Shown: positions 820-26,629 of the stretch, one piece after another
How the letters are laid out: the number at the start of each line of letters is the position of its first letter
Numbering within the stretch: the stretch's first letter is position 1
Assembly (NCBI GenBank): GCA_023248635.1
Contig: JAHFED010000053.1
Span: forward strand, 1 to 44,396
Source: Myxococcales bacterium
GTDB taxonomy: Bacteria; Myxococcota; UBA727; VGSZ01
DNA length: 44,396 nucleotides
Reading direction: 5' to 3'
Notes under the pieces: generated by a model
The model's input: only the letters and a program-made list of their open reading frames with translations
The model's database searches: none
What the model was told of the DNA's origin: nothing
Translations under genes and position numbers: made by a program

Positions 820-887
820 GGCGCAGCCTACCCCGCCCCTGGACTTGTGAGGCAGTGACGACGCCGAGCTGTGCGATGGTGGGCGCC

Positions 888-3011
888 ATGCGTTGCGCGT
901 TCCTCGTGGTGTGTGGGCTGCTGCAAGCCTGCGCCGCCGGCCCCGTGCCACCCCTGGTCGAAGACGGCGACGTCGACCTGCGCACCTGGAATTTCGACGG
1001 CGGCGAGGTCGATCTGCTGGGCCGCTGGGAGTTTGGCGCGGGACGCTTGCTCGTCGAAGAAGGGCAGCCGGGGTCGGTGCTCGTCGACCGCTTGTCCGTC
1101 CCCGGCGAGTGGGGCCGCGTTCCCCTGAGCGACGGCAGCAGCGCCAGCGGCGTCGGCGTCGGAACCTTGCGCGTGCACCTGCTCCTGCCCCCGGGGCCAC
1201 TGGCGCTCGCGCTCTCGCACGCCGGCTGCGCCTACACCCTGGATGCCGTCGACGCCGCGGGCGTCCGCACGCGCTTGATGAGCGGGGGCCGCGTCGGCGT
1301 CGACGCCGCCCACAGCGCACCCGACGACCTGCCGCAGCGGGTGACCCTGCCAAACGCAGGCGAGCTCACGCTGCTTTGGCAGATCGCGAACTTTGCTTTG
1401 CCCAACGGCGGCCCAGTGGCCGTGCCCCGCCTCGGTCGACCCGAGCGCCTGGCCCAGAGGCGCAACAGCGACGCCAAGCGCGAGTTTTACGTCATCGGGA
1501 TGCTGGCGATGTTCGGCGTCTACCACCTCGCCCTGGCGGCGTTGAGGCGCAACGAGCCCGCGCCCTTGTGGTTCGGTTTGTTCTGCGCTGGCGTTGCCCT
1601 TCGCACCACGACCAGTGGATTTCACCTCCAAGAGGCGCTTGCCTCTGTTGATCATTGGTCTTTCGTCAAACGCGTTGATTTTCTAAGCGGTCATATCGCA
1701 CAAGTCTGCTTTGTCTGGTATGTGAGAGATCTCTTGCCCGGGCTGCTGAGCCGCGCCTTCGTTCGCACGGTCACCTGGCCCACCTTCGTGCTCGTCATCC
1801 TCACGCTGCTGACGCCGCCGTCGGTCTTTGGGTGGACCGCCGTGCCCTTCTACGTGATCATCGTCGCCAGCTTGCTCGGCCTCATGAGCATGATGGTGGC
1901 TGCGCTTCGACGGCGGCAAAATACAACCTCGATTTCATTGATGTTTGTAGGTATTTTCTTCATTGTCATTGCCTCATTCAACGGCGTCTTCGTCGCCCTG
2001 CACTGGGTGGATGCCCGTCTCTTGGGCCCCGTCGGCGCAGCCATGACCACGGGCTTCATTCTCTGCCTCTCGCTGGTGATCGCCCGGAGCAACGCCTCCG
2101 CCCGACGCCGTGCCGAGGACCTGTCGGTGCGCCTGCAGCACTTCGATCAGTTGAAAAATGAGTTCCTCGCCAACACCTCGCACGAGCTGCGGACGCCGCT
2201 GAACACCATCATCAACGTGCCGGCGGGCCTGCGAAACCTCATCGAAGCACGCGACGTGCTGATTTGCCCCGGTTGCGCCGCCCTCTTCGAAGACGACAAC
2301 GACGACGACGACGCGGCCCAGGTCTGTGGCAGCTGCGGTCACACCGGTCTGGTGGTGGAGCGCCGCCGCTTTGCTCCCGACGACGCCGAAGCCCTTGATC
2401 TGCACCTGCTCAACATCATTGGCTCCGGGCAGCGTCTGCTCTCTCTCGTCGACGATCTCCTCGACTACAGCCGCATGGCCGCCGGGCGCCTCACCATCGC
2501 CCCCGGCCCCGTCGCCCTCGACGACATCGTGGCCACCGCGCTGGCCCGCAGCAAACCCGACGCCGACACCGCTGGCTTAAGCCTGCGCTCCTCAGTGACA
2601 CCCGCGCTCGTTTTCGTCGGCGACCGCCAACGCCTGGTGCAGGTGGTCGCCCTGCTCATCGGCAACGCCATCAAGTTCTCGCCCCAAGGCGGCGCCGTCG
2701 ACGTCACCGGGGCGTTGGACGGGAGCGACGTCGTCGTGCGCATCGTCGATCAGGGCTGCGGCATCGCCCCCGCAGACCACGCCCTCATCTTCGAGTCTTT
2801 TCGGCAGGTCGAGGGCGGACACACGCGCAAGCACGGCGGCGCGGGCTTGGGCCTGGCCATCGTGCGCCACATCGTCGAGCTGCACGGGGGCCGGGTCTGG
2901 GTCGAGAGCGCTCTCGGAGCAGGTGCGACCTTCACTGTGCGGTTGCCACCCACACCCACCGCGCGCCCAGAGCAACCAAAGCGCGAGCGCATTGCCAGCG
3001 TCGTGATCTGA
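888..3011 (+). CDS. 7TMR-DISM-type sensor histidine kinase with a Cys4 insert in HisKA
   Basis: A 707-residue membrane histidine kinase. The ATG at 888 gives a short hydrophobic leader ending in a lipobox-like LLQAC; 855 and 876 are alternatives. Residues ~20-190 form a beta-rich periplasmic domain opening with DVDLRTWNFDGGEVDLLGRW, typical of 7TMR-DISM extracellular domains. About seven hydrophobic helices follow (residues ~205-405). The H box is NTSHELRTP with phospho-acceptor His432. A catalytic ATPase domain follows, with an N box at NAIKFSPQGG, a G1 box at DQGCGIAP and a G2 box at GGAGLGLAIV. It ends without a receiver, so a separate response regulator is expected. Unusually, between the H box and the second HisKA helix lies an insert with C460-x2-C463, an acidic loop and C480-x2-C483, resembling a zinc ribbon. 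The ligand is unknown. Confidence 0.88.
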   Translation: MRCAFLVVCGLLQACAAGPVPPLVEDGDVDLRTWNFDGGEVDLLGRWEFGAGRLLVEEGQPGSVLVDRLSVPGEWGRVPLSDGSSASGVGVGTLRVHLLLPPGPLALALSHAGCAYTLDAVDAAGVRTRLMSGGRVGVDAAHSAPDDLPQRVTLPNAGELTLLWQIANFALPNGGPVAVPRLGRPERLAQRRNSDAKREFYVIGMLAMFGVYHLALAALRRNEPAPLWFGLFCAGVALRTTTSGFHLQEALASVDHWSFVKRVDFLSGHIAQVCFVWYVRDLLPGLLSRAFVRTVTWPTFVLVILTLLTPPSVFGWTAVPFYVIIVASLLGLMSMMVAALRRRQNTTSISLMFVGIFFIVIASFNGVFVALHWVDARLLGPVGAAMTTGFILCLSLVIARSNASARRRAEDLSVRLQHFDQLKNEFLANTSHELRTPLNTIINVPAGLRNLIEARDVLICPGCAALFEDDNDDDDAAQVCGSCGHTGLVVERRRFAPDDAEALDLHLLNIIGSGQRLLSLVDDLLDYSRMAAGRLTIAPGPVALDDIVATALARSKPDADTAGLSLRSSVTPALVFVGDRQRLVQVVALLIGNAIKFSPQGGAVDVTGALDGSDVVVRIVDQGCGIAPADHALIFESFRQVEGGHTRKHGGAGLGLAIVRHIVELHGGRVWVESALGAGATFTVRLPPTPTARPEQPKRERIASVVI

Positions 3012-3428: not shown

Positions 3429-4913
3429 TCAGAGCCGAAGGCGCCCCTCGCTGCTGACCTCGGTGAGGATGGCCTCCCACGATTGCGCGGGGCCATCCCA
3501 ACTCACGTCTTTGGCCATCAGCCGACGCTGCACCTCTTTGAGGCGACCACTCGCACCCAGGGCTGCAACCCGGGCGACGCCGTCGACGAGAGCCTGGGCG
3601 CTGAGCGGCGAAAAAAGCACACCGGTGGCGCTCTTCCAGGGGTCTTCGACGTCGTCGGCGCGCTTCAGCGGCGTGAACAGGGGATCGCGAATGGTGTCTT
3701 GCAAACCGCCCGTCGCGTGGCCCACCGGCAAAGTGCCGTAGCGCTGGGCGATGAGCTGCACGAGGCCACAAGGTTCGAAGCGCGAAGGCACCAAGACGAC
3801 GTCGGCGCCGGCGTAGAGGCGGCGCGAGAGGCCTTCGTCGAAGGCGGACTTGAACCACACGCGGTCTGGGTGCTGGGCCGCCTTGATGTGCAACTGACCG
3901 GCGAGCTCTTTGTCGCCGTCGCCGAGGAGCGCGATGGTGGCGCCCTTTTGCAACAGCCCCTCGAGGGCGAAGAGCAACACGTCCCAACCCTTCTGCGCGG
4001 CCAGGCGGCCAATGGCTGTGACCAGCAGTCCAGGAGCGGGCTCGACAAGCCCAAGCTCGTCCAGCAGCGCCCGGCGACACAGCGCCTTTCCCTCTGGCGC
4101 CGTCGTCGAGTAATGCGCGGGCAGCGCCGCGTCGCTGGCGGGGTCGAAGCGCACAGCGTCGATGCCGTTGACGATGCCGCGCAACCGGTGAGCCCGCGAG
4201 CGGTACATGCCCTCAAGGCCTTCGCCGAAGGTCGAGGTCTGGATCTCCTTGGCGTAGCTCGGTGACACGGCGACGATGCGGTCGGCAAAGATGGCGCCGC
4301 ACTTCAAGAGGTTGAGCTCGCCCCAGCTCTCGACGCCGTTGGCGTGAAAGAGGTCGCGGGCCAGGCCGGTGTGCGGCAGCAGCGACGACGGATAACGGCC
4401 CTGGTGCGCGTTGTTGTGCACCACCTGAACCGTGCCGACGCCGCGGGTGAGGCCGCGATCGAGGGAGGTGCGCAGCGCGCCAATGGTGAGGGCTGCATGC
4501 CAATCGTGGGCGACGACGACGTCGGGGAGGGTGGCTTCGGCGACGTAGGCCGCGGCCCGCGCCAACGCGACAAAGCGCAGCCCGTCGTCGCCGTAGCCGT
4601 AGAGACCCGGTCGATCGTAGAGGCTGGGCAGATCGACGGCGGCGACGTCGACGCCGGGAAAGAGCGGTCCTTCGAGCAGGCGGCCGAAGGCGTCGAAAGC
4701 GCCCGCGGGATCGTGGAAGGTGAGGCGCATCGCGCTGCGTTCGACGAGGCGCGGACAGGCCGGGCTCTGCAACAAGCTGCGGTAGGCCGGCAACACGCAG
4801 GTCACCTCGTGCCCCAACGCCCCTAGAGCGCGGGCCAAACCCGAGACAGCGTCGCCGAGACCGCCCGATTGGGCCAAGGGCGCCAGCTCCGAGGAAACGA
4901 ACATGATCTTCAT
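3429..4913 (-). CDS. glgA: Glycogen (starch) synthase, GT5
   Basis: A 494-residue GT-B glycosyltransferase that transfers glucose from ADP-glucose to the non-reducing end of alpha-1,4-glucan; it is cytoplasmic. The N-terminus MKIMFVSSELAPLAQSGGLG is the GT5 signature, with Gln15 where many bacterial enzymes have the Lys of KTGGL. The C-terminal GT domain carries SRFEPCGL (Glu380) and a second TGGL-like loop (residues 401-404). Length matches the family (~480-500). The start codon overlaps the stop of the upstream phosphatidyltransferase gene as ATGA, so translation is probably coupled. No other glycogen gene is nearby. A related GT5 enzyme with different donor use is possible because of Gln15, but the rest is orthodox. 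Confidence 0.93.
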   Translation of the reverse strand: MKIMFVSSELAPLAQSGGLGDAVSGLARALGALGHEVTCVLPAYRSLLQSPACPRLVERSAMRLTFHDPAGAFDAFGRLLEGPLFPGVDVAAVDLPSLYDRPGLYGYGDDGLRFVALARAAAYVAEATLPDVVVAHDWHAALTIGALRTSLDRGLTRGVGTVQVVHNNAHQGRYPSSLLPHTGLARDLFHANGVESWGELNLLKCGAIFADRIVAVSPSYAKEIQTSTFGEGLEGMYRSRAHRLRGIVNGIDAVRFDPASDAALPAHYSTTAPEGKALCRRALLDELGLVEPAPGLLVTAIGRLAAQKGWDVLLFALEGLLQKGATIALLGDGDKELAGQLHIKAAQHPDRVWFKSAFDEGLSRRLYAGADVVLVPSRFEPCGLVQLIAQRYGTLPVGHATGGLQDTIRDPLFTPLKRADDVEDPWKSATGVLFSPLSAQALVDGVARVAALGASGRLKEVQRRLMAKDVSWDGPAQSWEAILTEVSSEGRLRL

Positions 4914-6268
4914 GGTGCTGGGCCGGATCCCTTCTGCGCTTCTTCATTGTCCTGTAATGACGCCGATAAAGCCGGCGACGTCGTCGTTGCCTTCTCGGTG
5001 ATGACCTGTGAAAATCGCGCGATTTGTGGCAAAAATCCATACACCAGCGACCCCGCCAGCAGGATGCCGGCAGCGACCCGCGGCCCGAGCAACACCGAGC
5101 TCGCGAGCAGCACCAGCGCGGCAGTCAGGGCGATGAGCTGCTTTTCGCGGCGCAAGCCAAAGAGCACCCGGCCCAGGTGGCGATAGGCGGAGTCGAAGCC
5201 GACCATCAACACCACGGCGACGCCGCAGAGAAAGCCCACCAGGGCCGGCTCATCGGCAAAGAGGATGGATGCGCACAAGGCCACCACACCGCCGATAGTC
5301 GAGGGCACCCCGCGAAAGAAGCGCGGGTCGTCGTCGTCGCCGCCCTTGTTCAAGGTGAAAAACACCAAGCGGCCGATGGTGAACACCGCGTAGGCGCAGC
5401 CAATCACGATCCCCGTGCGCCCTTCGACGACGACTGCGACCGCGACGGCTGGAGCCAAGGCGTAAGAGATGCCGTCGGCGACGTCGTCGGCCAACACTCC
5501 AAAGCGCGTGCCCCCCCACCGGCGCGCAGCGGCGCCATCGAGGCCGTCGAAGCCGGCACCGACCAAGAGCAAGAGCAGGCACCACGCAGGTTCACCCTGC
5601 AGCGCCAGGGCGATGGAAACGAGGCCGCACAGAGCATTCATCATCGACAAGCCATCAGCGATGAAGCGTTTGCGCAGGGCCCCGGCGTTCACCAGGGCGA
5701 CGAAGGCGGTGAACACGATGTTGATGACGAGGAGGGCTTCGACGGCGTCGCCCGTGATGAAGGGCGGGGCGGGGCCTTGGGTCAGCAGCAGCATCGCCAA
5801 CAAGGTCGCGTCCGAAAGGGACGTGCGAATGCGGTTCTCGCTGGTGGCGCGCTTGAGCAGCACCAGCAGCAGCAAGATGAGATCGAGGGCCAGCTTGGCG
5901 ATAATCAGTCGCCCCGGGAGCAGGTCCCAAGCAAACCAGGTGATGAGCAGCAGCAGCGGCAAGTCGCAGACCCGGTCGAAGACGCGGCCAAAGTCGGATT
6001 CCAGCCCCCGCACCCGGGCGACGACGCCGTCGAGGGCATCGAGCAGGGCAAAGAGCAAAAAGAGCAAGACGGCGAAGGTGAGACCGCCCGGCAGCACGTC
6101 GATCTGGCGCAGGGTGAGGGCCAGCAAGGGCGTGACGACGACGAGCTTGAGCGCCGAGAGCGCATGGGGATGCAAGGGAATGGCGCGGCCAATCTGCTCT
6201 TCGACGGCGTCGACGAAGGCGGGCTTGGGCACGATGCGCTGGGGTGGCTCGGACACGCGGTGGACCAT
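4910..6268 (-). CDS. Fused tandem CDP-alcohol phosphatidyltransferase
   Basis: A 452-residue polytopic membrane protein with two CDP-alcohol phosphatidyltransferase signatures. The first, residues 77-102, fits D-x2-D-G-x2-A-R-x8-G-x3-D-x3-D exactly (D77, D80, G81, A84, R85, G94, D98, D102). The second, residues 241-265, has the same residues (D241, D244, G245, A248, R249, G257, D261, D265) with seven rather than eight residues before the Gly. The second half also has NALCGLVSIALAL, as in phosphatidylserine-synthase-type enzymes. Family members normally have one such domain of ~180-250 residues and exchange CMP of a CDP-activated lipid for an alcohol such as serine, inositol or glycerol phosphate. 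Both metal-binding sets look intact, so both halves could be active. The substrates are unknown. It overlaps glgA by 4 bp and is divergent from the asparaginase gene. Confidence 0.85.
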   Translation of the reverse strand: MVHRVSEPPQRIVPKPAFVDAVEEQIGRAIPLHPHALSALKLVVVTPLLALTLRQIDVLPGGLTFAVLLFLLFALLDALDGVVARVRGLESDFGRVFDRVCDLPLLLLITWFAWDLLPGRLIIAKLALDLILLLLVLLKRATSENRIRTSLSDATLLAMLLLTQGPAPPFITGDAVEALLVINIVFTAFVALVNAGALRKRFIADGLSMMNALCGLVSIALALQGEPAWCLLLLLVGAGFDGLDGAAARRWGGTRFGVLADDVADGISYALAPAVAVAVVVEGRTGIVIGCAYAVFTIGRLVFFTLNKGGDDDDPRFFRGVPSTIGGVVALCASILFADEPALVGFLCGVAVVLMVGFDSAYRHLGRVLFGLRREKQLIALTAALVLLASSVLLGPRVAAGILLAGSLVYGFLPQIARFSQVITEKATTTSPALSASLQDNEEAQKGSGPAP

Positions 6269-6312
6269 CTACCATGGTTGACGCAGCCGCAGCAGCAGGC
6301 GACGTCGATGCC

Positions 6313-6831
6313 ATGAGCCCGCGCAAGATTGCCCTGCTCTCGACGGGCGGCACCATCGAGAAGACCTACAACGAAAGCGATGGCACCATCGAAAACCGGC
6401 TCTCGGTGCTGGAGATCATGCTGGCCGGGGTCATCTTGCGCGGCGTCGTCATCGAGCGGGTCCCGGTGATGAACAAGGACTCCCTCGATATGACCGACGC
6501 CGATCACGAGCGGGTCGCCATCGTCGCCGGCGTCTACGCCGAGAGCCACGACGGCTTGATCATCACCCACGGCACCGATCGCCTGCAGCACACCGGCGAG
6601 AAACTGGTCGCCCGTTTGACGTCGTCGCCGCGGGTGCCGATCGTGTTGACCGGCGCCATGAAGCCCTACGAGCTGCGCACCACCGACGCCCTGCAAAACC
6701 TCACCGAAGCGATGCTCGCGGTGCAGTTGGTCCCCCCCGGCGTCTACGTCGCCATGCACAACCAGGTGCTGCGCTTCCCCGGGGTGGTGAAAGACCACGC
6801 GGCCCTGCGTTTCGTGCGCGCACCAGGCTGA
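6313..6831 (+). CDS. Short asparaginase-family protein
   Basis: A 172-residue protein matching the N-terminal domain of type I/II L-asparaginases. KIALLSTGGTIEKTYN carries the first catalytic Thr loop, and GLIITHGTDRLQHTGE carries the second Thr-Asp pair. LTGAMKPYELRTTDALQNL follows as in the family. Full asparaginases are ~320-350 residues with a C-terminal domain, which is absent here, so this belongs to the short-form homologues. Hydrolysis of asparagine or another amide is plausible but not assured. I chose the ATG at 6313 because the family begins directly at this strand; ATG 6274 would add 13 residues of Ala/Asp-rich leader. The gene is divergent from the phosphatidyltransferase starting at 6268. 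Confidence 0.8.
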   Translation: MSPRKIALLSTGGTIEKTYNESDGTIENRLSVLEIMLAGVILRGVVIERVPVMNKDSLDMTDADHERVAIVAGVYAESHDGLIITHGTDRLQHTGEKLVARLTSSPRVPIVLTGAMKPYELRTTDALQNLTEAMLAVQLVPPGVYVAMHNQVLRFPGVVKDHAALRFVRAPG

Positions 6832-25377: not shown

Positions 25378-25504
25378 GAATTCACCGACAACGCTTTCGC
25401 GTGTCTGTGAATTGTCTACAGGTTCATCGCCTGACGGCGATGAATTCACCGACAGCGCTTCGCGTGTCGGTGAATTGTCTAGAGGTTCATCGCCTGGCGG
25501 CGAT
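25378..25504. repeat. Two tandem copies of a 64-bp double-palindrome element
   Basis: Copies 25378-25441 (64 bp) and 25442-25504 (63 bp) differ at only a few positions. Each contains two palindromes: a long one with AATTCACCGACA/TGTCGGTGAATT arms around a CGC/GCG-rich loop, and a shorter TTCATCGCC/GGCGATGAA hairpin. They lie just upstream of the lipoprotein gene at 25548 and may form its leader, or be a mobile repeat. Confidence 0.85.
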
Positions 25505-25547
25505 GAATTCTGTGCATCCTGCGCCGCCCTTTACCTCCAGGAGTCCC

Positions 25548-26357: not shown

Positions 26358-26420
26358 GCCGAACAGCCAGCGCGTCGGCTCAGGGCGGGCTCTGACGGCT
26401 TCCTGCTTTGCGCCGTTGGG

Positions 26421-26595
26421 CTTCCTGCTTTGCGCCGTGCCAACGGCGCAAAGTGCTTCCTGCTTTGCGCCGTGCCAACGGCGCAAAGTGCTTCCTGCTT
26501 TGCGCCGTGCCAACGGCGCAAAGTGCTTCCTGCTTTGCGCCGTGCCAACGGCGCAAAGTGCTTCCTGCTTTGCGCCGTGCCAACGGCGCAAAGAG
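26421..26595. repeat. Five tandem copies of a 35-bp palindromic repeat
   Basis: Copies start at 26421, 26456, 26491, 26526 and 26561 and are nearly identical, with a partial copy at about 26399. Each holds the hairpin TTTGCGCCGT-GCCA-ACGGCGCAAA (10-bp arms, 4-base loop). There is no unique spacer between copies, so it is not a CRISPR array. The reverse complement core recurs exactly at 10599-10616. The array lies between convergent genes ending at 26357 and 26630 and could also terminate both. Confidence 0.92.
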
Positions 26596-26629
26596 CTGGC
26601 CCTGAGGTTCGTCGCCGGCAGGGCGTCGT

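Follow-up and report, generated by a model that had tools for sequence, protein, structure and literature searches.

CDP-alcohol phosphatidyltransferases (CDP-APs) are a known superfamily, and the bacterial and archaeal CDP-AP structures cited in this comparison are homodimers. Because both protomers are the same in these structures, the contribution of the second protomer to the first is hard to read. Among the closest described systems, the phosphatidylserine (PS) synthase MjPSS (7B1K/7POW; PssA family, TIGR00473) binds serine through Asp62, Ser63, Asp66, and Phe105, with Arg101 required and Arg104 contributing (PMC8633023). In the MjPSS dimer, the N-terminal helix of each protomer extends to the ion network of its partner; removal of seven N-terminal residues of that helix leaves only ~8% of activity (PMC8633023). 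In RsPIPS, on the phosphatidylinositol-phosphate (PIP) synthase side of the superfamily, the acceptor phosphate is bound by R153/R191 (PMC4634129). Joining of a CDP-AP domain to a second domain has a precedent in IPCT-DIPPS (AfDIPPS, 4MND) and in AF2299, but in both cases the CDP-AP domain is paired with a soluble cytidylyltransferase or cytidylyltransferase-like domain rather than with another CDP-AP domain. A tandem of two unlike CDP-AP domains was not found described in our literature searches, whose coverage left out most subscription papers.

Here we analyzed such a tandem protein, encoded in a 44,396-nt stretch of DNA from a Myxococcales bacterium (the window; contig JAHFED010000053.1). 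The features of the locus are collected in Table 1. When PF01066 was run against the whole protein it gave 74.9 bits in two matches, and a whole-genome scan returned the same two places. Tested separately, the N half scored 42.8 bits (E 9e-11) and the C half 46.7 bits (E 6e-12), each about twice the curated cut-off of 22 bits. The first-pass annotation had proposed two CDP-AP domains in one protein and had named a match of one half only as one finding that would speak against it; both halves lie above the cut-off. Its account of the two motifs was equally accurate. The N motif, D77-A-L-D80-G81-V-V-A84-R85-x8-G94-x3-D98-x3-D102, agrees exactly with DxxDGxxAR-x8-GxxxDxxxD, while the C motif, D241-G-L-D244-G245-A-A-A248-R249-x7-G257-x3-D261-x3-D265, has x7 rather than x8 before the Gly, and all eight motif residues are present in both halves. 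Since the x7 spacing is constant throughout the fusion family and also occurs in ordinary PgsA of related genomes, it is neither odd nor a sign of damage. By profile and motif, the window protein is a member of PF01066, and transferase activity with CDP-diacylglycerol is predicted. An AF2 model of moderate quality (pLDDT 68, pTM 0.55; built on 4 sequences) gave the N domain an amphipathic helix followed by six predicted transmembrane (TM) helices and the C half a PssA-like helix set; the best Foldseek matches of this model were MjPSS structures (TM 0.74 by target), a search that does not distinguish which half is concerned. Judging from the model, both active sites would face the same side of the membrane.

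Table 1. Features of the tandem CDP-AP locus, in window coordinates.
Feature	Position	Strand	Evidence or remark
glgA, ADP-glucose type glycogen synthase	3429..4913	-	TIGR02095, 433 bits (cut-off 328)
TGA/ATG 4-bp overlap, end of fusion gene and start of glgA	4910..4913	-	
Tandem CDP-alcohol phosphatidyltransferase gene, 452 aa	4910..6268	-	ORF; PF01066 twice
N domain, residues 14-195	5684..6229	-	PgsA/PIPS-like; Pfam, NCBIfam, hhalign and tree, AF2 secondary structure
N-domain CDP-AP motif, residues 77-102	5963..6040	-	Complete in window protein
N-domain ENRIRT, residues 144-149	5822..5839	-	Resembles GKxKT of PgsA (alignment by eye)
C domain, residues 196-428	4985..5683	-	PssA-like core; extra C-terminal TM helices as in MjPSS
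C-domain CDP-AP motif, residues 241-265	5474..5548	-	x7 spacing
C-domain R300-L-V-F-F304	5357..5371	-	Equivalent of MjPSS R101-L-A-R104-F105

The two halves come from different subfamilies. In hhalign comparisons, the N half matched PgsA with a probability of 96% and the C half matched PssA with 99.6%, whereas the halves matched each other with only 4.6%. On a tree with the single-domain CDP-APs of the same genomes, the N domains grouped together on the PgsA side (group support 74) and the C domains all grouped with PssA (support 99). A profile search of the PDB placed the N half nearest to MtPgsA1, a PIP synthase (6H53), and the C half nearest to MjPSS over nearly its whole length. This pattern suggests a single fusion of two unlike members. 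An internal duplication was rejected, and the earlier suggestion of an intramolecular dimer, if taken to mean two copies of one protomer, is not supported. The alignment of the C half with PssA covers both the core and the additional helices at the C-terminal end; the C half differs in its motif spacing and in being preceded by an additional CDP-AP domain. As had been noticed from its context, it is PssA-like: TIGR00473 and archaetidylserine synthase models match it below their cut-offs, and since TIGR00473 (82 bits for the whole protein, 61 bits for the C half) does not reach its equivalog cut-off of 107, the C half was not filed as PssA. The N half shares six helices, the full motif, and its best profile matches with PgsA, PIP synthase, and archaetidylinositol-phosphate synthase, but it lies far under every cut-off (21, 29, and 37 bits against TIGR00560, NF045883, and NF040950, with cut-offs of 109, 170, and 180), is covalently fused, and has lost the motif in many family members. 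The tree also contained a small PssA-like protein of 190-196 aa (G196:C7:22281, G431:C67:72045, and G461:C1:2312376) as a weakly supported sister of the fusion C domains; in G461 it accompanies a canonical PssA.

Conservation of the fusion in relatives, a check proposed with the original observation, was confirmed by 23 two-domain proteins (the window's included) from three phylum-level groups, namely the window's phylum, a myxobacterial phylum, and an epsilonproteobacterial phylum. Within the window's class, strong matches were obtained in 3 of 16 species searched. G005, which belongs to another family of the order, has a full-length homologue with 52% identity, and the match in G001, from the window's own genus, is the one among the three that is confined to the C domain. 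A search of the whole phylum (195 genomes) added G193, a named genome collection supplied fusions from a Polyangiaceae MAG (L035), an Epsilonproteobacteria MAG (L036), and a proteobacterial MAG (L037), and sampling of the phyla of the latter two yielded further members, among them G431 on the epsilonproteobacterial side. In myxobacterial samples the fusion occurs in about 4-5% (~5% of species in one class of that phylum). Single-domain relatives comprise four C-domain-only proteins (G001, G1102, G1103, and the fragmentary G869) and one N-domain-only protein with a complete motif (G1133). The fusion is old and common to at least three bacterial phyla, and it probably arose once. Because normal enzymes have a single domain, a joining of two genes by assembly or sequencing error had to be considered; since independent genomes, that of another family of the order included, encode full-length homologues 43-52% identical to the window protein, we regard the chance of such an artifact as practically nil.

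Several family members are unusual in their boundaries. In G1040 (L146:1495-4260), the fusion runs ~500 further residues in frame, in which Pfam gave no match at E 0.001. The protein of G796 is a genuine truncation of the front part, the upstream gene ending directly before it. In G1133 (L152:1333-2130), the lone N domain stops where the C domain would start, and a C domain was looked for in the adjoining DNA and not found. In G869, the C domain is divided between two contigs (L114/L115), and the L114 frame enters unrelated sequence, probably at an assembly join; the recovered part has an intact motif.

Loss of the CDP-AP motif is strikingly asymmetric between the halves. The eight residues of the C motif are complete in 25 of 26 tabulated C domains, the exception being G705 with Trp for Gly, whereas the N motif is complete in 14 of the 23 fusions and altered in nine: Gly to Trp in G431, both Gly to Ala in G197 and G956, the last Asp to Ala in G792, Gly to Ala and Arg to Gln in G705, and Asp and Gly to His in G1058, with the motif gone in G719 and G762 and truncated in G796. 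When mapped on the C-domain tree with C-only proteins counted, the N motif was changed or its domain missing at least seven independent times vs. a single change of the C motif, and such N changes separate close relatives (G000/G001, G196/G431, and G197 and G956 vs. G693 and G900). The repeated loss of the N site with retention of the C site suggests that the C half is probably the working enzyme. At the same time R146 and P104 are kept in all 24 N domains and R148 in 22 of 24, including those that lack the metal motif. In the motif-less members, the N half therefore seems to be kept by something besides catalysis.

The first-pass annotation had also suggested a two-reaction enzyme. This is possible for the window protein, where both motifs are complete, but not as a family-wide function, since in many members the N active site has been changed or lost. 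In its fuller form, the proposal assigns a phospho-alcohol lipid (PGP- or PIP-like) to the N half and an amino-alcohol lipid to the C half, both made from a shared CDP-diacylglycerol pool, so that the fusion would set the ratio of the two lipids and members with a broken N site would have lost one reaction secondarily. The intact eight residues in the window and in the other complete fusions are consistent with it, as is the intact motif of the N-only relative, and the invariant R146 and near-invariant R148 resemble the acceptor-phosphate residues of PgsA and PIPS. However, the last helix of the N half has no evident second Arg corresponding to R191 of RsPIPS, and C-only relatives lack the half altogether. 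Furthermore, the window genome encodes its own canonical PssA (C62), PgsA (C86), and PS decarboxylase (C59), so the fusion is an additional enzyme there, and no inositol-1-phosphate synthase was found in that genome; an inositol lipid as product of the N half was rejected on this ground, and neither usual product needs the N half. Taken together, we consider a bifunctional enzyme a serious, though less favored, alternative.

In the C half, the residues of the MjPSS site were mapped by PDB profile alignment. The metal motif and the equivalents of both serine-binding Asp residues, Phe105, and Arg101 are retained. In contrast, the position of Ser63 (residue 262 in the window protein) is Asp in all 26 scored C domains of the fusion family vs. 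Ser in 39 of 39 canonical PssA-type proteins from the collected loci, and the position of Arg104 is Phe or Tyr in 26 of 26 C domains vs. Arg in 34 of 38 canonical proteins. The C half therefore combines PssA-like catalytic machinery with a consistently different acceptor site, and the two substitutions suggest that its acceptor could be other than serine. If so, the family would also point the way to a head group of myxobacterium-like bacteria that has yet to be described.

Catalysis, acceptor, and partner role are what we infer from the directly observed domain architecture, motif loss, and acceptor site, and the reading that we favor, with about an even chance of being right, is a one-time fusion of unlike CDP-APs in which the C half would be the constant catalytic unit and the N half a tethered partner, maybe still catalytic in the window protein. 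The C half would transfer phosphatidyl from CDP-diacylglycerol onto a small alcohol. For some members at least, this acceptor may be serine; a related acceptor is considered because the serine site differs at two positions. The N half, a PgsA/PIPS-type six-helix domain, would serve as a covalently tethered partner across the family and could plausibly replace the second protomer of the usual dimer; with its complete site, that of the window protein may in addition act on a second acceptor. A hetero-partner arrangement of the unlike halves is possible; the interfaces of PIPS-type and PSS-type dimers differ. Several observations run against the favored reading: the C-only relatives indicate that the C half can exist without the N half, and the many complete N motifs, together with the N-only protein, mean that much of the family may have an N half with enzymatic activity of its own. 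The changed serine site and the separate canonical PssA of most genomes count on the same side. In a stricter version, which we think unlikely, the single chain would amount to an obligate heterodimer: a PgsA-type pseudoenzyme partner would shape a PssA-like site with changed acceptor, and the product would be a phospholipid other than that of canonical PssA. Since a single chain here links two unlike protomers and one active site has been killed repeatedly, the family makes the question of what one protomer contributes to the other directly testable.

The wider genomic context bears on whether the C half makes PS. Most fusion genomes possess a separate canonical PssA, as the window genome does, and PS synthesis therefore need not be the role of the fusion in those genomes. 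G762 and G792 gave no PssA-type match besides the fusion, a PS decarboxylase is present, and a search for a PLD-type PssA found none; as the N motif is broken in both, only the C half could be a PS synthase there, which makes the fusion, through its C half, the best candidate for that activity, with the qualification that completeness values are absent for both genomes, which makes the lack of PssA less certain than it would be had they been finished. The epsilonproteobacterial G196 and G431 likewise have no match above the PssA cut-off, whereas all six compared relatives have one; replacement of PssA by the fusion is suggestive in these two, but as both also encode a PssA-like protein of 194-196 aa, we put no weight on it. 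These genomes also bear on a further alternative, that the fusion is a redundant or decaying lineage-specific PssA paralogue whose N half has no special role, with the fusion as a whole retained neutrally. Its sparse distribution and usual coexistence with canonical PssA would fit such a history, as would G705, whose fusion has both motifs damaged and which, alone among 18 genomes checked, gave no PS decarboxylase match. Nevertheless, across large distances a single protein has a damaged C motif, the fusion has been retained in three phyla, and it is the sole PssA-type candidate in G762 and G792, which together make this alternative improbable.

The fusion gene is followed by glgA, and the translational coupling reported earlier is a true 4-bp overlap. 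A lipid/glycogen link is not supported: no recognizable glgA lies beside the fusion at six other loci (10-19 kb context), and in all-against-all BLAST the neighbors at those loci had in common only the fusion itself and generic or distant matches. A functional link was therefore dismissed, and the coupling is, as far as seen, local to the window lineage. On the opposite strand, a 195-aa ORF (6244-6831) carries an N-terminal asparaginase domain only (PF00710, 97.6 bits, 163/193 positions), the C-terminal asparaginase domain not being matched by Pfam. Rfam gave no match in the window, including its near-perfect tandem repeats, which lie at 26397-26597 (35-bp unit x5.1, 99% match), at 25378-25510 (63-bp unit x2.1), and at the contig start (1-103, 33-bp unit x2.6). 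On the far side of glgA, the window encodes on the plus strand (855-3011) a histidine kinase with a 7TMR-DISM_7TM sensor, whose split HisKA region contains a four-Cys stretch (CPGCAAL ... CGSCGH).
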